Assembly: GCA_022710895.1 (NCBI GenBank)
Contig: JAKLGB010000002.1
Span: forward strand, 20,344 to 62,952
Source of the DNA: Bacillota bacterium
GTDB taxonomy: Bacteria; Bacillota_I; Bacilli_A; Izemoplasmatales; Hujiaoplasmataceae
Direction of reading: 5' to 3'
DNA length: 42,609 nucleotides
In this document: positions 10,320 through 24,793 of the stretch, piece by piece
How the letters are laid out: every line of letters starts with the position of its first letter
Numbering within the stretch: the stretch's first letter is position 1
Position numbers and translations under genes: made by a program
Notes under the pieces: model-generated
Databases searched by the model: none
The model's input: the letters and a program-made list of their open reading frames with translations, nothing else
Told to the model about the DNA's origin: nothing

Positions 10320-11132
10320 ATGATATGGACCGCCAGCGACCTTTTCTGGTCCGAAACCAATTTACGAACTTTGCTGCCTGCCACCTTTTTGATGGCGGCT
10401 TTTGCCTTGCTCCTGCGCCGTTTGATTGGAACTCGGGAACGGCCCCTCAAGAACCTTCCCTTCCAAATCCTAACGGTTTTTCTCATTGTTATCGAAATAA
10501 TCAAACAAGTTCGGGAGATTCGGGGAGGGGCGTATTCCACTTGGTCTTTACCGCTGCATTTCTCCAGCATTTATCTCTATCTTTTCCCATTGACTCATTT
10601 TTCAAAGGGAAGGTTTCGAGAGGCCATGGCGGGTGCGACCGTCGTGGCGGCGGGAATGACCACGATCGGTACCCTGCTGTTTCCGATGACCGTTTTCGGA
10701 AATTCGGCAGAAAGCTACTTCCTTAGTTTTGACGCTTTTCATACCATCACGTTCCATTATGTGATTATTTTATATTTTTTCCTCTTCATCGCCTTGGAAG
10801 TCAATAAGCCCGATTGGAAACGGGATGTGCGGACCGTGTTTTGGATGGTCACCCTTTTTTCGGTGGTGGCCGGAACCGCAGCCAATCTTCTGGAAACCAA
10901 CTTCACCAGTTTCTATACCTGTGCCTTTCCTCCGGTGGAAGCGATGCGAATGTCTTTGCATAGCAGGTTCGGGGAGACCGCGGGTCAAACGATTTATGGC
11001 TTGTTTATGTATGTGTGCATCCTTGCAGATTCGACCCTGGCTTTATTATTGTATCGCTCCCTCGATCGCCTGATTCGCTTTTTCCCGATCGGAATACAGG
11101 AAACGATGCGGACCTCCACTCAAGACTCCTAG
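10320..11132 (+). CDS. YwaF/TMEM164-like integral membrane protein
   Basis: 270-residue protein with about seven predicted membrane helices (first near residues 17-35, last near 238-256). The conserved stretch STWSLPLHFSSIYLYLFPL resembles the LPLHxCxL motif of the YwaF family, related to eukaryotic TMEM164, for which acyltransferase activity has been proposed. The pattern of His residues in membrane segments (LPLHF, FHTITFHYVI) fits that superfamily. GGAGG lies nine bases before ATG 10320. It is a single-gene unit between two terminators. Biochemical role in bacteria is unknown; family placement is by motif memory only. Confidence 0.65.
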   Translation: MIWTASDLFWSETNLRTLLPATFLMAAFALLLRRLIGTRERPLKNLPFQILTVFLIVIEIIKQVREIRGGAYSTWSLPLHFSSIYLYLFPLTHFSKGRFREAMAGATVVAAGMTTIGTLLFPMTVFGNSAESYFLSFDAFHTITFHYVIILYFFLFIALEVNKPDWKRDVRTVFWMVTLFSVVAGTAANLLETNFTSFYTCAFPPVEAMRMSLHSRFGETAGQTIYGLFMYVCILADSTLALLLYRSLDRLIRFFPIGIQETMRTSTQDS

Positions 11133-15119: not shown

Positions 15120-15160
15120 GTCTTTCGATGACCGAAGACTCCGCGGTTATAATTTCAAAA

Positions 15161-15189
15161 AAGGTTCTTCATTTGAAGAATCTTTTTTC
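15161..15189 (+). terminator. Terminator of the pot operon
   Basis: AGGTTCTTC (15162-15170) pairs with GAAGAATCT (15175-15183), four-base loop, followed by six T. Confidence 0.88.
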
Positions 15190-15262: not shown

Positions 15263-15290
15263 TTGACAGATTTTTCCGATGTGGTATGAT
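15263..15290 (+). promoter_or_regulatory. Promoter of the MFS_2 / acyltransferase operon
   Basis: TTGACA (15263-15268) and TATGAT (15285-15290) with a 16-base spacer plus a TGG extended -10. The predicted start near 15297 rules against translation from the ATG at 15302. Confidence 0.85.
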
Positions 15291-15328: not shown

Positions 15329-16735
15329 ATGGCTCAACATAGCTTACGCAGGAAACTGGCTTTCGCTTCCGCCGATTTCTTTGGCGGCGGGTCTTTCAAC
15401 ATCGTCAATTTTCTTTATCCGGAATTTTTGGCATTGACCGTCGGAGTCAGTCCTTTTTGGATCAGTTTCATTTTTTTGGTGGCTCGTGTTTGGGATGCCG
15501 TCACCGACCCGATTATGGGCTACATTTCCGATCACACCCATTCCAAACTGGGAAAACGCCGGATCTACTTGCTCATATCCGCCCCTCTGGTAGTAGTGGG
15601 AATGTACCTTCTGTTTTTTCCGTTCAATTTCCCCAACGAGTGGACGAACGTCATTGCCGTCCTGATGTCGTATTTGGTGTTCACAACAATTCAAACCAGT
15701 ATCATGATTCCGTATTACTCCTTGTCCAGCGAAATTTCCAGCAATTTCCAGGAGCGGGCTTCCTATAATTCCTATCGCTTGGGTTTTAGCATTTTTGCTT
15801 CCATCCTTTGCGTCGCGGTCCCCGGAATCATGGTCGAGCAGTTCGCCGACGCCCGGATCGGTTATCAAGTGATGAGCCTCACCTTCGGGGTGTTGTTTGG
15901 ACTGAGCGTTTTGATGACCGGGCTGTTCGCCAAAGAAGAAATCACCACCCCGACCGTCTCGACGCAGCTTTCCATCAAAGAAATGGCCAAGCCGTTGAAA
16001 CTTCGGCCGTTCCGTCAGTATCTGGGGATGTTTTTGGTTTTGCAATTGTCGATGGCGGTGATGAGCGGTCTGTTCTTTTTCTACGTCGACTTCTATGTGA
16101 CCAAAGATGCCACCGCGGCCGGTCAAGAATTGATGGTGGCCGACATCGCTGCAGCACTGATGTTCGTCACTCAAATTTTCGCCCTCCCGGTTTACTTGAA
16201 AATGATCCAAAACAAAGGGAAAACCTTCGCTTACCGGTTCGGGGCGATCATCTGGATTGCCTCGGCCTTGTTGCTGCTGGTCATCCCGCCCAACATCAAC
16301 CCGGTCTTCATTTATGGGTTGGCGGTGGTCATGGGATTCGGAATCAGCGGTCCCGGACTCGTTCCCCACACGATGTACGGAGATGTCGTCGATGCCGGGC
16401 AACTGTTGTTCAAAGACCGGCTGGACGGACAGATGAGCGGATTCACCAATTTCATCAACAAAATGGCTCAAGCCCTAGGGTTGGCCGCCGTGATGTTCAT
16501 CATCGGTTTGGCCGGTTTTCAGTCCCAGGATTTGACCCAACCGGACATTCTCAGTCAGCCCGACAGCGCGATGCTGGCGATTCGCATCATCATGGCGGTG
16601 GTCCCCTTGATTTTTATGGGAATCGGGATCTTCATTTCCCGTCATTATCGGATCGACAGTCGGAAACAAGCCGAAATTGCCGAAGCGATCCGCAATCCCG
16701 CCTCCCGTTCCGAAGAAATCATCGCCGGATTGTAA
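15329..16735 (+). CDS. MFS_2 (MelB / glycoside-pentoside-hexuronide type) cation symporter
   Basis: 468-residue carrier with about 12 membrane helices. The signature between helices 2 and 3 reads RVWDAVTDPIMGYISDHTHS with LGKRR following, as in MelB and in the animal lysolipid carrier MFSD2A, both of the MFS_2/GPH group. The Asp in DPIMG corresponds to the cation-site Asp. ATG 15329 (GAGG nine bases upstream) is chosen over ATG 15302, which would sit only about 5 bases from the predicted transcript start. The next gene, a phospholipid-type acyltransferase, starts 3 bases after the stop. That context suggests a lipid rather than a sugar substrate, but this is inference; sugar remains the default for the family. 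Confidence 0.85.
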   Translation: MAQHSLRRKLAFASADFFGGGSFNIVNFLYPEFLALTVGVSPFWISFIFLVARVWDAVTDPIMGYISDHTHSKLGKRRIYLLISAPLVVVGMYLLFFPFNFPNEWTNVIAVLMSYLVFTTIQTSIMIPYYSLSSEISSNFQERASYNSYRLGFSIFASILCVAVPGIMVEQFADARIGYQVMSLTFGVLFGLSVLMTGLFAKEEITTPTVSTQLSIKEMAKPLKLRPFRQYLGMFLVLQLSMAVMSGLFFFYVDFYVTKDATAAGQELMVADIAAALMFVTQIFALPVYLKMIQNKGKTFAYRFGAIIWIASALLLLVIPPNINPVFIYGLAVVMGFGISGPGLVPHTMYGDVVDAGQLLFKDRLDGQMSGFTNFINKMAQALGLAAVMFIIGLAGFQSQDLTQPDILSQPDSAMLAIRIIMAVVPLIFMGIGIFISRHYRIDSRKQAEIAEAIRNPASRSEEIIAGL

Positions 16736-16738
16736 ATC

Positions 16739-17890
16739 ATGAAACGGACCAATTGGTTTCTCAACGTCACGTTGGGTTTCTTGGTGAAAATATTCGCATT
16801 TCTAAAAGGTCAAAGGATCCATCGATTCGCCCGTGTTCACGGTCCGGCCATCGTTTTGTCGAATCATACTTCCTTTTTTGATTTCATCTATACCGCAGCC
16901 GCCTTGTATCCGCACCGGATTAGTTACATGGCCGCCGGGAAAATGTTTTACGACCCCGTCCTGGGTTTCTTTTTGCGGCTGGTCCGCGCTTTTCCCAAAT
17001 GCCTTTTCCAAGCCGATCCTGTTTCGACCTTGAACGTTTTTCGCATCCTCCGTCAGAACGGCATCGTTTCGATTTTCCCCGAAGGACAGATATCTCCGAT
17101 CGGGGTGACCCAGCCGATCCCCTTCGCGATTGCCAAATTGATCAAAAAAGCCAAAGTGAACGTCTATTTGGTCAAACATCGTGGAGCTTATCTGGTCAAC
17201 CCACCGTGGACGAAACGGTCTTTTCGCGGAAGAGTCGAAACCGCTGTCGAACAGATCCTGTCCTCGGAGACGCTTTCGGAGATGAACGAAAGAGCGGTCT
17301 ACGAAACGATCGTCGAAAAAATGGAATTCAATGTTTTCGAATATCGTGAGCAGCATCCCGGAGCGTACCGATGGAAAGATCTGTCGAATCTGGAAAGCGT
17401 GCTCTATCGCTGCCCGCGCTGCGGAAACGAATCGATGACCGCGGAGAGACCCCGGCTCTGTTGCCCGCAATGCGGAAATCGGCTGGAACCCGACGCCCTC
17501 GGAAAACTCGGAGGGCAACGGATCGACGAGATGTACCGACAACAGGAGCGGGTGATGCGAGAGAAAATCGAAGCCGATCCCGAATTCCGCCTCACTTCCC
17601 CCGTTCGTTTGGAAAGTTTTCGCGGCGATCGTCTCGTGGAAGTCGGCACCGGAACCCTGAGCTTGTCAAGGTCGGGGTATCTTTATGAAGGCATCGTAGA
17701 CAATGAACCGACCATGTTGCATTTTGATCCCCGCAACGTACCCACGTTGCCCAGCGATTTGGGGAGAAACATCCAAATCTATGAAGGTTACCTCATTTAT
17801 CAATTCGTGATGGAAGAAGTCACGCTACCCACCCGGTTCGTCATCGCCGGAGAAATCATCCATCGGATGTTGGCGGAACCCCGAGGATAA
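16739..17890 (+). CDS. PlsC-like acyltransferase with C-terminal zinc ribbon
   Basis: 383-residue predicted membrane-associated enzyme. Residues ~1-200 are an LPLAT domain: NHTSFFD (His 43, Asp 48) is the catalytic HX4D motif, and FPEG at 113-116 binds the glycerol phosphate. Residues 225-245 form a zinc ribbon (C225-x2-C228 and C242-x2-C245), followed by a charged helix and a ~120-residue beta-rich tail that I do not recognise. A PlsC domain with this tail is unusual. It is tightly coupled to the MFS_2 carrier (3-base gap) and precedes an MFS carrier (42-base gap). The likely reaction is acylation of a lysophospholipid or similar acceptor; the acceptor is not known. Confidence 0.82.
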   Translation: MKRTNWFLNVTLGFLVKIFAFLKGQRIHRFARVHGPAIVLSNHTSFFDFIYTAAALYPHRISYMAAGKMFYDPVLGFFLRLVRAFPKCLFQADPVSTLNVFRILRQNGIVSIFPEGQISPIGVTQPIPFAIAKLIKKAKVNVYLVKHRGAYLVNPPWTKRSFRGRVETAVEQILSSETLSEMNERAVYETIVEKMEFNVFEYREQHPGAYRWKDLSNLESVLYRCPRCGNESMTAERPRLCCPQCGNRLEPDALGKLGGQRIDEMYRQQERVMREKIEADPEFRLTSPVRLESFRGDRLVEVGTGTLSLSRSGYLYEGIVDNEPTMLHFDPRNVPTLPSDLGRNIQIYEGYLIYQFVMEEVTLPTRFVIAGEIIHRMLAEPRG

Positions 17891-17932
17891 ACGCGAATCG
17901 AAGCCCCACACCGCCTGTTTCGGAGGAACGCC

Positions 17933-19135
17933 ATGATTCTTTTGCTTGTCATCATTTACCTTGCCTTTATTTCCTTAGGACTTCCCGACGCCTTGTTCGG
18001 CGTTTCCTGGCCCGTCGTTCATCAGGAGTTCGGCCTCGATGTCGGCTTCGCTTCGGTGGTGACCGTGATTGTGGCGGTCGGAACCGTATGGACCAGTTTT
18101 TTCGCTGGCAAGGTGATCCGTCGGTACGGAACCGGAAAAGTGACCGCGGTGTCGGTCGGTTTGACCGCCGTGGCTTTGCTCGGCATCTCGTTTTCCACTT
18201 CCATCGCGATGACGATTGCTTTTTCGATTCCTTTAGGAATCGGAGCCGGAGCGGTCGACGCCGGTCTCAACGATTATGTCGCCCGACATTACAAACCGCA
18301 GTTCATGAGCTGGCTTCACAGTTTTTGGGGTGTGGGCGTGACGATCGGACCCTTGGTGATGTCCGCCTTTTTGGCGTCCGCGTCCGGGTGGAGGGGCGGA
18401 TACCGGACCATCGGAATCGTCCAATCCTTCCTGTGCCTGATTTTGATTGCCTCTCTTCCTCTTTGGCGGAAAGTTGCCCGACTTCGGGCCCAAAAAGAGA
18501 CGGAAAAACCTTCATCGGGTTCCGTCGGCGATGGAAAACATGAAGAAAAGAAAATCACTCCCATTCGGATTCCCGGTGTGACTTTGGCGATGATCGGCAT
18601 CGCCCTGTACTGCGCGGTGGAAAACACGCTCGGGACCTGGGGAGCCAGTTATCTGGTGGTGACCCGCGCCATCGATCCCGCCGTGGCCGCCCAATGGATC
18701 TCCTTCTATTACGGAGGCATCATGGTCGGACGCATCGCTTCCGGTTTTGCGGCGATGCGTCTGTCTGATAAAACCATGATCCGCATCGGAATGGCCGTGG
18801 TGACCGTCGGAATTCTATTTCTCGCACTGCCTTTCGGAACCACGACGACCTTTGCCGGATTGATGCTGATCGGGCTGGGAGCCGCCCCGGTGTTCCCCAG
18901 TTTCATCCATGCGACCGCCGACCGCTTCGGGGAAACCTACGCTCCGGACATCGTCGGATATCAGATGGCCGGCGCTTATTTTGGGGTCCTTGTCCTTCAA
19001 CCGCTCGCGGGTCAGGTGTTTGCCCGCATCGAATTCGGTCTCCTGCCGTGGGTTCTGTTGGTTTTTGCCCTCTCCCAGACCGTGTCGACGGAAGCCTTGA
19101 ACCGAAAACTGCTTCGCATTCGCGGCGTTCGATAA
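17933..19135 (+). CDS. Major facilitator superfamily transporter
   Basis: 400-residue carrier with about 12 predicted helices and a central cytoplasmic loop rich in charged residues (residues ~185-210). The first helix ends SLGLPDALFGVSWPV, and GLNDYVARHY plus MSWLHSFWGVGVTIGP between helices 4 and 5 resemble the fucose-permease-like (FHS) group. GGAGG lies just before the ATG. It is the last gene of the MFS_2 / acyltransferase unit; a terminator follows 20 bases after the stop. Substrate unknown. Confidence 0.82.
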   Translation: MILLLVIIYLAFISLGLPDALFGVSWPVVHQEFGLDVGFASVVTVIVAVGTVWTSFFAGKVIRRYGTGKVTAVSVGLTAVALLGISFSTSIAMTIAFSIPLGIGAGAVDAGLNDYVARHYKPQFMSWLHSFWGVGVTIGPLVMSAFLASASGWRGGYRTIGIVQSFLCLILIASLPLWRKVARLRAQKETEKPSSGSVGDGKHEEKKITPIRIPGVTLAMIGIALYCAVENTLGTWGASYLVVTRAIDPAVAAQWISFYYGGIMVGRIASGFAAMRLSDKTMIRIGMAVVTVGILFLALPFGTTTTFAGLMLIGLGAAPVFPSFIHATADRFGETYAPDIVGYQMAGAYFGVLVLQPLAGQVFARIEFGLLPWVLLVFALSQTVSTEALNRKLLRIRGVR

Positions 19136-19154: not shown

Positions 19155-19182
19155 CAACCCTTGAACGACAAGGGTTTTTTAT
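19155..19182 (+). terminator. Terminator of the MFS_2 operon
   Basis: AACCCTTG (19156-19163) pairs with CAAGGGTT (19169-19176) around a five-base loop, running into six T. Confidence 0.88.
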
Positions 19183-19235: not shown

Positions 19236-20048
19236 CTAAAGCGATTCTTTGGTTTTTTTTGCGGCGATCCAGCGAGAAACAATCGGTTTTCCGACGATGA
19301 ATCCCGTTACGAGAAGCAGCAGGATCATTCCGAAAAGAGCGGTGTTGTAGACAGCTGGATATCCTCGGTCGAATTGAAGAGGATCGACATGTTTGAGATA
19401 GATTCCCAAATAGGCCCAAACGAAGACTACACCATACCCGAGATTCTTTTGAATCAGGAGAGTCGCCACCCCGATGGCGATCCCGACGAGGAGGATGATC
19501 ATCGTTTGAATCGTGGCGCCTACCGTGTTGTCAGGGACTCCCAAGCTCACCAAGTAGGTGGTAATGTTGGCGATGGTCGCCACGGTGATCCAGCCAAAAT
19601 AGATGCCAAAGGTGACTTTCGTCAACGGATCGGTCTTGGCCAAACCGAAGGAAAGAAGGATCAGGCATCCCAAAATCAGAAGCATCAACAGAACCGAAAC
19701 GAGGATCGCCCGGTAATGCCACGCCAGGATCCACAGCGCGTTGAAAAGCGAAGACAAGGCCAAAAGCCCGTTCACTCGAATCCATATGGGGGAAGGCCTT
19801 TCCCCTTCTTTGATCCGAAGGCTTTGGATTTGCCGGAGGACATAGACGCCCAACAAGAGGTAGATGACTCCCCAAACGGTAAAAGTCAATCCCGTCGGAG
19901 CGAAGAGATTGAAATAGGAATCCGACAACGCCCCGGTGGTGATTCCGTTGATGGGAATGATATTGGCGAGTGCGTTGACAATGATCATGACCAAATAAAG
20001 ACCGAAAGAGACCCAAATCCAAAAACGCCGGTTTTCCTGACGGAACAT
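19236..20048 (-). CDS. TspO/MBR-related membrane protein
   Basis: 270-residue protein with 7-8 predicted helices. The stretch FAPTGLTFTVWGVIYLLLG matches the PPxWxFxxxWxxLY-type core of tryptophan-rich sensory proteins as found in the longer Bacillota members, and a second FGIYFGWITVATIANIT segment agrees. GTAGGAGG precedes the start. It has its own promoter (20080-20108) and terminator. TspO proteins bind tetrapyrroles and steroids in other organisms; whether this longer variant does is unknown. Confidence 0.72.
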   Translation of the reverse strand: MFRQENRRFWIWVSFGLYLVMIIVNALANIIPINGITTGALSDSYFNLFAPTGLTFTVWGVIYLLLGVYVLRQIQSLRIKEGERPSPIWIRVNGLLALSSLFNALWILAWHYRAILVSVLLMLLILGCLILLSFGLAKTDPLTKVTFGIYFGWITVATIANITTYLVSLGVPDNTVGATIQTMIILLVGIAIGVATLLIQKNLGYGVVFVWAYLGIYLKHVDPLQFDRGYPAVYNTALFGMILLLLVTGFIVGKPIVSRWIAAKKTKESL

Positions 20049-23351: not shown

Positions 23352-24059
23352 TCAGTTGATGGAGGGATGGAAATCCCGGAGGTCATTCAAAATCAGACGG
23401 AATCGTTCCGCCAGGATGCGGCGATCGGAAACGTCCCCGAATTCGCCGAGTCGGCGAGGTTCGCCAACCACGATTCGCCGAGACTTTCGATCGAAAAACA
23501 GAGGAACGATCGGAAGATCGCACCCGTTCCGTTTCCGGTATTCTTGGGCCAAATAGACAAATCCTGAGTGGAATGTTTCGACCGTTTCATGGTAACCTCC
23601 GGAACTATCCTCGGGAAAAATGAGCAGCGAATTGCCGTTTCGCAGATGTTCCATGCTTTCGGCGATGGTGTGGCGAACCCTCGCATCGGGATAAGAGGGG
23701 ATCAATCTCACCCCATCGTAAAGGATTTTGGAGACCAATGCGAACAAGGTGGACAACAGAAACGCGCGAGCCTTTGAGTACCTGAGCTTTTGGCGATAGA
23801 AGACATGATAGAGGTAATTCCAACGGTCACGATATCTCCCATTCATCTGGTGGGCGCCCCAAGGAACGAGAATTTTGGGAAAGTAGATGTTCAGGGTTAA
23901 CGGTCCTCCCGCCCCGTCGTGATTGGCGATGTAAAGGGCCGGATCCGGCAGAGGGCCCGAATATCCTCGAATTTCATGCTTTTTCTTGAATAGGCGTAGA
24001 AGGCTTTTTACCATGCGTATAAACCCGTTGTGTCGGGTCATATGGGCGATTTTTCTCAT
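23352..24059 (-). CDS. Divergent PlsC-like acyltransferase
   Basis: 235-residue protein resembling lysophospholipid acyltransferases. The block I region reads NHDGAGGPLTL, so His is kept but the catalytic Asp five residues later is replaced by Gly-Pro; the Asp directly after His might compensate. Block III reads FPEDSSGG instead of FPEG. Residues ~85-140 carry basic and aromatic residues suited to membrane contact. The ATG overlaps the stop of the HAD gene (ATGA), so the two are translationally coupled. It could be an active enzyme with altered geometry or a non-catalytic lipid binder. Confidence 0.7.
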   Translation of the reverse strand: MRKIAHMTRHNGFIRMVKSLLRLFKKKHEIRGYSGPLPDPALYIANHDGAGGPLTLNIYFPKILVPWGAHQMNGRYRDRWNYLYHVFYRQKLRYSKARAFLLSTLFALVSKILYDGVRLIPSYPDARVRHTIAESMEHLRNGNSLLIFPEDSSGGYHETVETFHSGFVYLAQEYRKRNGCDLPIVPLFFDRKSRRIVVGEPRRLGEFGDVSDRRILAERFRLILNDLRDFHPSIN

Positions 24060-24793
24060 TTTATGACGTGCCTTTTTTCCGCTCCGACGGGAGGGAGCGA
24101 ATCGAGGTAACGTGCCAACTCGATGAAGGTTCCGTATCGGAGAGATTCCCATGGACGGTGGTGGTCGTTGATGATGCAGTCTGTGACTAAATAGAAAGGA
24201 ATACCCAAAGATTCCGCTGCACCGTCTTCCCAGACATCATTGCCGACCATCATGCAATTTTCCGGTCGACTTCCGCACTTTCTCAGCACTTCTAAATAGT
24301 ATTCCTGCGAAGGTTTCGCCGCCGTCGAGTTCTCCATTGTGGTGATGAGTTCAAAATCACTCGGACTCAGCCCCGCCCAACGGATGCGCTTTTCCGTTGC
24401 GATTCGGGGAAAAAGGGGATTGGTTGCCAGAACCGTCCGATACCCCTTGCGGTGAAGGGCGCCGATGATGGTGGCAGCCAAAGGCTGGACTTGCGAAGAA
24501 ATCCGGACTTGATCGAAATCTTCTTCGTAATACCGATAGAACTCGTCCATCCACGCTTCCGCCTGCGGAAGGACGGACATAAATGCTTTCCAGAAGACTT
24601 TTTCGTTGGTTTCCGGTCCGATGTTTTCCCGGACGCGGTCGATTCCCGCACCGATCGCCCGGATCAAATCGTCCGGATGTAGTCCTTTGGGGGCAAAACG
24701 GCGGATTAATCCGCCGAAATAAACTCGCAGGAAAGTGGGTTCGTCCAGAGGCAACAGGGTGCCGTCTAAGTCAAAGAGAATGGTGTCAAGCAT
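24056..24793 (-). CDS. HAD-superfamily hydrolase, probable phosphatase
   Basis: 245-residue cytosolic protein. Motif I FDLDGTLLP (nucleophile Asp at residue 8), motif II ATNPLF (Thr in place of the more usual Ser/Thr), Lys in AAKPSQEYY, and motif IV MVGNDVWEDG are all in place. A helical cap of ~90 residues lies between motifs I and II. AAAGGAG precedes ATG 24793. It sits between a class-3 aldehyde dehydrogenase (46-base gap) and an acyltransferase (overlap), so a lipid-related phosphate ester is a reasonable guess for the substrate. Confidence 0.85.
   Translation of the reverse strand: MLDTILFDLDGTLLPLDEPTFLRVYFGGLIRRFAPKGLHPDDLIRAIGAGIDRVRENIGPETNEKVFWKAFMSVLPQAEAWMDEFYRYYEEDFDQVRISSQVQPLAATIIGALHRKGYRTVLATNPLFPRIATEKRIRWAGLSPSDFELITTMENSTAAKPSQEYYLEVLRKCGSRPENCMMVGNDVWEDGAAESLGIPFYLVTDCIINDHHRPWESLRYGTFIELARYLDSLPPVGAEKRHVIK

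Follow-up and report, generated by a model that had tools for sequence, protein, structure and literature searches.

A conserved gene pair of an MFS_2 carrier and a PlsC-type acyltransferase in a Bacillota genome, with a possible role in lysolipid uptake and reacylation

In a stretch of 42,609 nucleotides from a Bacillota bacterium of the order Izemoplasmatales (assembly GCA_022710895.1, contig JAKLGB010000002.1, positions 20,344 to 62,952), here called the window, we studied three co-directional open reading frames (ORFs) on the + strand, which encode an MFS_2 carrier, a PlsC-type acyltransferase and an MFS_1 carrier and are separated by gaps of 3 and 42 bases (Table 1). The window lies on contig C56 of a host genome of 1.43 Mb that is 81% complete. 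The initial annotation had read the three genes, lying between a promoter and a terminator, as a possible operon for lipid uptake and reacylation. The ORFs, both gaps and the setting of the unit, with a promoter-like site before it and a terminator-like hairpin after it, were confirmed here. A further terminator-like hairpin sets the unit apart from the pot-type ABC transporter genes upstream. The promoter-like and terminator-like sites are plausible only, since such consensus scans yield several chance matches (7 promoter-like sites were found, against 4.4 expected). The main result concerns the first two genes, which form a pair that is real and strongly conserved.

The MFS_2 gene and the acyltransferase gene are direct neighbours in 37 genomes, which belong to five families (f1, f12, f16, f18 and f14), ten of them to the window's own family, f1; these genomes are related to each other, so they do not represent 37 independent events. 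This is the conserved adjacency of MFS_2 and LPLAT-zinc-ribbon genes that the initial annotation had proposed to look for. In the pair from family f14 (G132), adjacency has been kept at 48% identity for the carrier and ~30% for the enzyme. Measured at 23 loci, the distance from the carrier stop to the enzyme start always lies between -4 and +7 bases; five of these loci have an ATGA overlap, and in the window the start codon of the acyltransferase stands 3 bases past the stop of the MFS_2 gene. Among 160 genomes of one order, the carrier is present in 25 and the enzyme in 24, all within those 25, while 135 have neither. The single carrier-only genome (G461) and three split cases are explained by contig ends, with the enzyme start still directly after the carrier, and contig ends also leave adjacency not judgeable in G475, G017, G027 and G030; no intact counterexample was seen among the surveyed genomes. 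The genes around the pair vary from genome to genome, and in the 16 best neighbourhoods no gene families other than MFS_2 and the acyltransferase are shared by all; the pair is retained across many dissimilar gene contexts. In G202, the site that corresponds by synteny to that of the pair in G191 and G214, members of the same genus, has a decayed acyltransferase remnant (L128:6215-6778) and no MFS_2 gene, an apparent co-loss of both genes. A second MFS_2 copy in G185 (contig C39; L124:1551-2933) is interrupted by a stop and has no partner gene. The first two genes form a conserved module and are probably translationally coupled. We found no description of the pair in the open literature searched, and a scan of named organisms returned only two close loci, one in an Acholeplasmatales metagenome-assembled genome and one in an uncultured bacterium.

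Table 1. Coordinates of the genes, domains, motifs and flanking signals of the three-gene unit in the window
Feature	Position	Strand	Details
Terminator-like hairpin and T-run	15157..15188	+	fold -14.2 kcal/mol, z -3.75; 3' side of pot-type ABC transporter genes
Promoter-like TTGACA-N16-TATGAT, extended TG	15263..15290	+	consensus scan 11/12; 38 bases 5' of the MFS_2 start
MFS_2 carrier	15329..16735	+	468 amino acids (aa); PF13347 1.5e-65
PlsC-type acyltransferase	16739..17890	+	383 aa; zinc ribbon and PH-like C-terminal domain
PlsC domain, residues 1-205	16739..17353	+	PF01553 1.9e-13; Foldseek top match 5kym PlsC
HX4D motif, residues 43-48	16865-16882	+	
FPEG motif, residues 113-116	17075-17086	+	
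Zinc-ribbon cysteines C225-x2-C228 ... C242-x2-C245	17411..17473	+	invariant in 17 orthologues
PH-like beta-sandwich and C-terminal helix, residues 284-379	17588..17875	+	AlphaFold secondary structure and Foldseek
MFS_1 carrier	17933..19135	+	400 aa; PF07690 2.6e-32
Terminator-like hairpin, then T-run	19156..19176	+	-10.3 kcal/mol, z -2.9

The acyltransferase has intact PlsC catalytic motifs, as the initial annotation had stated, with both HX4D and FPEG present; one orthologue (L064) reads FPES in place of the latter. The AlphaFold model (predicted local distance difference test, pLDDT, 85.6) consists of the PlsC domain, a zinc ribbon, a helix, a seven-strand sandwich and a C-terminal helix. 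Weak Pfam zinc-ribbon matches fall at residues 222-251, and Foldseek related the sandwich to PH, EVH1 and Ran-binding domains, with template modelling (TM) scores, normalised by target, of up to 0.73. The zinc-ribbon tail had been put forward as a part that might give partner or substrate choice, and its part in partner choice was not supported: the ribbon occurs in 48 of the 49 homologous acyltransferases of the tree set, many of them without an MFS_2 partner, and pairing with MFS_2 is lacking in most of the other clades, so that as a family trait it cannot alone explain the partner, and we rejected it as a device of partner choice. Since the genome carries a separate canonical PlsC (C55, 88 bits), the housekeeping role probably does not fall to the paired enzyme. 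A further protein, encoded at window 23352-24152 (-), only just passes PF01553 (23.7 bits against a cut-off of 23). PlsX lies just outside the window, the genome encodes four DegV/FakB-type proteins, and the sole ketoacyl-synthase match in this 81%-complete genome is partial (25 bits). Taken together, these hint at a reliance on exogenous fatty acids or lipid in a genome of which a fifth may be missing.

The carrier passes the MFS_2 profile PF13347 (221.9 bits, gathering score 27) and does not reach the GPH sugar symporter model TIGR00792 (186.4 bits, curated cut-off 231.35). The cation site of MelB involves D55, D59, T121 and K377, in MelB numbering (PMC8329300), and the Na+-site residues D56, D60, T123 and K378 of the carrier are conserved in all 14 orthologues. 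The galactoside residues of MelB, K18, D19, D124, W128 and R149, whose presence would, by the initial annotation, have counted against a lipid role, are absent, the carrier clade having G, G, M, Y and L. Sugar-context paralogues, presumed sugar carriers, likewise lack them, and they are restricted to MelB orthologues (PMC8329300); this comparison therefore cannot decide the substrate, and we rejected the missing residues as evidence for lipid. The fold was set aside on similar grounds. In the predicted model (pLDDT 84.8), MFSD2A is the best Foldseek match with a TM score of 0.83, and MelB reaches 0.82-0.83, with most MelB structures at 0.80-0.83, so that the two families score alike.

In the tree, all MFS_2 proteins linked to the acyltransferase form a single clade with support of 100/100. 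The sister paralogues examined are found beside GH88 and xylose-isomerase-like genes, one of them in the same genome, and a GH31-linked paralogue falls just outside; MFSD2A branches outside both the bacterial carrier clade and these paralogues, on a long branch. The same-genome paralogue, clustered with xylose-isomerase-like and GH88 genes (L074:5994-11628), serves as a control for claims about substrate. The carrier clade has a near-invariant signature of N26, N373 and N/S376 (MelB numbering), in which the Arg that the sugar paralogues have at position 376 is replaced by Asn or Ser throughout. This distinct signature suggests that the clade has probably changed its substrate relative to its sugar-context sisters. 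Carrier residues F28, F235, F249, Q122, R53 and R150 match MFSD2A, and the Arg equivalent to R180 and the Phe residues equivalent to F59, F298 and F312 of MFSD2A are invariant in the clade.

Other members of the acyltransferase family are joined to other carriers. In 17 genomes, from families f1 and f3, genes of another clade of this enzyme family lie directly 5' of a GltS-like symporter gene (17 loci: L075:4560-7071, L025, L023, L026, L028, L029, L031, L165-L173 and L183). This pairing is as tight as that with MFS_2 and similarly spaced, with about -7 to 22 bases between the matches where this was measured; the symporters are just above the cut-off of PF03616 where tested, and one truncated copy has no match. 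Three genomes (G000, G005 and G011) carry both the MFS_2 pair and the GltS-like pair, so the two pairs are not mutual substitutes. Two more enzymes are fused to or beside a VTT/DedA domain and a DcuC-family carrier (L131:1-3388 and L132:4541-7911); in animals, the VTT-domain proteins TMEM41B and VMP1 are scramblases (PMC9066413). These multiple pairings strengthen the idea that acyltransferases of this family work with membrane carriers. A further acyltransferase clade is followed by a protein of 85-87 aa (L176:3392-3649, L177:1629-1886 and L184:3292-3555); a PQ-loop identity was considered for this partner, but the match in one of the three falls below the Pfam cut-off (17.5 bits against 22), and it is a lead only.

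From these comparisons, it can be proposed, with about even confidence, that the pair is a counterpart of LplT-Aas built on an unrelated carrier family, in which a Na+-coupled carrier of lysolipid or lyso-glycolipid feeds a dedicated acyltransferase. The MFS_2 protein would import or flip a lysolipid, either a lysophospholipid or a lyso-glycolipid, with Na+ coupling; the molecule would come from the outer leaflet or the surroundings and arrive in the cytoplasmic leaflet, and the PlsC-zinc ribbon-PH enzyme would add the second fatty acid at the cytoplasmic face to give a full membrane lipid. The two proteins may form a complex, as LplT and Aas do (PMC11416262). That the substrate is a lipid, that it moves inward and that the two proteins form a physical complex is inferred, as is the acyl donor. 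This proposal draws on the adjacency and spacing of the two genes, their co-occurrence, their being the sole families shared by the 16 neighbourhoods, the single carrier clade apart from the sugar-context paralogues and the co-loss in G202, and also on the conserved Na+ site, the invariant Arg and Phe residues matching MFSD2A, the separate canonical PlsC, the presence of PlsX and DegV/FakB-type proteins beside only a partial ketoacyl-synthase match, and the sister enzyme clade tied to another carrier.

Several observations weigh against lysolipid import. The carrier clade adjoins sugar-cluster carriers in the tree, and its identity to MFSD2A is ~22%, the same as for the sugar-context paralogues, which is no closer kinship than the sugar carriers have. 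The paralogue of the GH88 cluster, much like the window carrier, matches MFSD2A (3e-27) far better than MelB (6e-16); the kinship with MFSD2A that the initial annotation had taken as a lipid clue thus loses its force, and MFSD2A as the best PDB match was rejected as evidence of lipid transport, since this same-genome sugar-cluster protein behaves alike. MFSD2A has 28 sites linked to lysolipid binding (PMC10167227, Table 1 and text); over these, agreement is raised only marginally, with matches at 0.288 for the clade and 0.219 for the paralogues (Fisher p 0.047, uncorrected and one of several looks), and the equivalents of H156, F396, W400 and E309 are changed in the clade. Finally, no phospholipase or lipid-supply gene recurs near the pair in the 16 neighbourhoods. 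As to a consistent third partner near the pair, the candidates, a flotillin/SPFH-type gene in two genomes, a TMEM164-like gene in one and a larger mixed cluster in five, were rejected, as none recurs consistently. The TMEM164-family protein of G265 (L121:3011-3745) is encoded ~170 bases 3' of the pair, and in the window a protein of this family is encoded at 10320-11132 (+), ~4 kb 5' of the pair.

The strongest rival explanation is that the carrier, with a sugar-like pocket, imports a water-soluble acyl acceptor, such as a glycoside, a glycerophosphodiester or a similar head-group compound, from which the enzyme builds a lipid, so that the ancestral sugar-like range would have been kept. This finds support in the nearest clades, which include the carriers of GH88 and GH31 sugar clusters, and in a fold and a Na+ site that are equally MelB-like. 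We nevertheless consider it somewhat unlikely. No sugar-catabolic gene, be it a glycosidase, a kinase or an isomerase, recurs beside the pair in the 16 neighbourhoods, and such neighbours had been named beforehand as an argument against lipid uptake; the Arg at MelB position 376, moreover, has given way to Asn or Ser. PlsC-family enzymes also normally require a lipid-anchored or phosphorylated glycerol as acceptor.

A carrier working outward, or as a non-directional flippase, would move a lipid made or remodelled inside the cell to the outer leaflet. Gene order and coupling are silent on direction and MFS carriers are capable of export, but the Na+-symport residues are intact and conserved, and the same site drives inward transport in MelB and MFSD2A, which makes this alternative improbable. 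It is less probable still that the two genes share no pathway and stand together through shared regulation, the spread of the pair as a unit or a coupling of membrane insertion. The surroundings do differ by genome, so the pair may travel horizontally; near-perfect co-occurrence over the 160 genomes, the tight spacing and the survival of adjacency through the deep divergence of G132 argue otherwise.

That all three genes make up one lipid operon in which MFS_1 is needed, as their common strand, the 42-base gap and the lack of a terminator between the second and third genes would allow, is very improbable, because no MFS_1 homologue stands beside any other pair and a close homologue of the third gene (76%, G003) lies inside another contig, while the homologues in G004, G005 and G011 are on contigs that do not carry the pair. 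The third gene also has its own strong GGAGG-type ribosome site and a G+C content of 0.567, against 0.51. We regard it as a local addition outside the conserved two-gene unit, probably a carrier with a role of its own whose co-transcription here is incidental; of the operon first proposed, the two-gene pair stands and the third member does not. Convergent with the three-gene unit is a gene for a TspO/MBR-family membrane protein (window 19236-20048, -; PF03073 1.7e-7). Long antisense open frames overlap the coding genes in window 15329-17890 on the minus strand (e.g. 15344-16471, 375 aa); these are taken as by-products of codon bias and were not counted as genes.

If the pair does import and reacylate lysolipids, then lysolipid scavenging by a carrier and a dedicated acyltransferase would exist outside the LplT-Aas lineage, through a carrier family that serves lysolipid uptake into the brain in animals. 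The small-genome relatives of mycoplasmas would thereby have a defined route of lipid uptake, and the mechanism of MFSD2A could be compared with that of a bacterial MFS_2 lipid carrier. In that case, the GltS-like partners, tied to glutamate transport by weak homology, would need re-examination as well. A broader and more tentative idea, to which we give less than even weight, is that the PlsC-zinc ribbon-PH enzymes of this bacterial class are a modular platform for lipid uptake, with separate clades each tightly tied to a carrier unrelated to the others: MFS_2 in one, a GltS-like symporter in another, and VTT/DedA with DcuC in others. Each carrier would supply a lysolipid or acyl acceptor of a different kind, to be acylated at the inner leaflet.

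Among known systems, the MelB/GPH sugar symporters share with the carrier the PF13347 family, 20-22% identity, TM scores of 0.80-0.83 and the conserved Na+ site; the carrier differs in lacking the five sugar residues, in falling under the GPH cut-off and in having no recurrent sugar-catabolic neighbours. The animal Na+-lysolipid symporters MFSD2A and MFSD2B have the same MFS_2 family, fold and Na+ site and several of the same Phe and Arg contacts, whereas their identity is as low as that of the sugar-context paralogues, their branch is long and lies outside, and several contact residues are changed. On the enzyme side, PlsC (1-acylglycerol-3-phosphate acyltransferase, 5kym) shares the HX4D and FPEG motifs and is the top Foldseek match, but the window enzyme has the zinc ribbon and the PH-like domain in addition. 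The acyl-[ACP]-phospholipid O-acyltransferase fusions (ACP, acyl carrier protein; PRK08633 and PRK06814), which have an N-terminal carrier part, give the best NCBIfam match to the PlsC part (1.3e-8); the match is limited to the PlsC stretch, at 33 bits against a cut-off of 1221, and the window encodes carrier and enzyme as two proteins, the carrier being of the MFS_2 family.

The closest parallel in organisation is LplT-Aas, which remodels lysophospholipids in Gram-negative bacteria and whose two proteins form a complex (PMC11416262). Both are conserved bicistronic pairs of a carrier and an acyltransferase with a PlsC domain, and the N-terminal domain of Aas aligns with the window enzyme at 27% identity over 135 residues. 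They differ in that the window carrier is an MFS_2 protein with no detectable similarity to LplT (BLASTP E 0.13), that the enzyme carries a zinc ribbon and a PH-like domain in place of an acyl-ACP synthetase domain, and that the carrier gene comes first here, whereas aas precedes lplT in E. coli. With no detectable homology between the carrier and LplT and no synthetase domain on the enzyme, the pair is like LplT-Aas in how it is organised but does not belong to that system.

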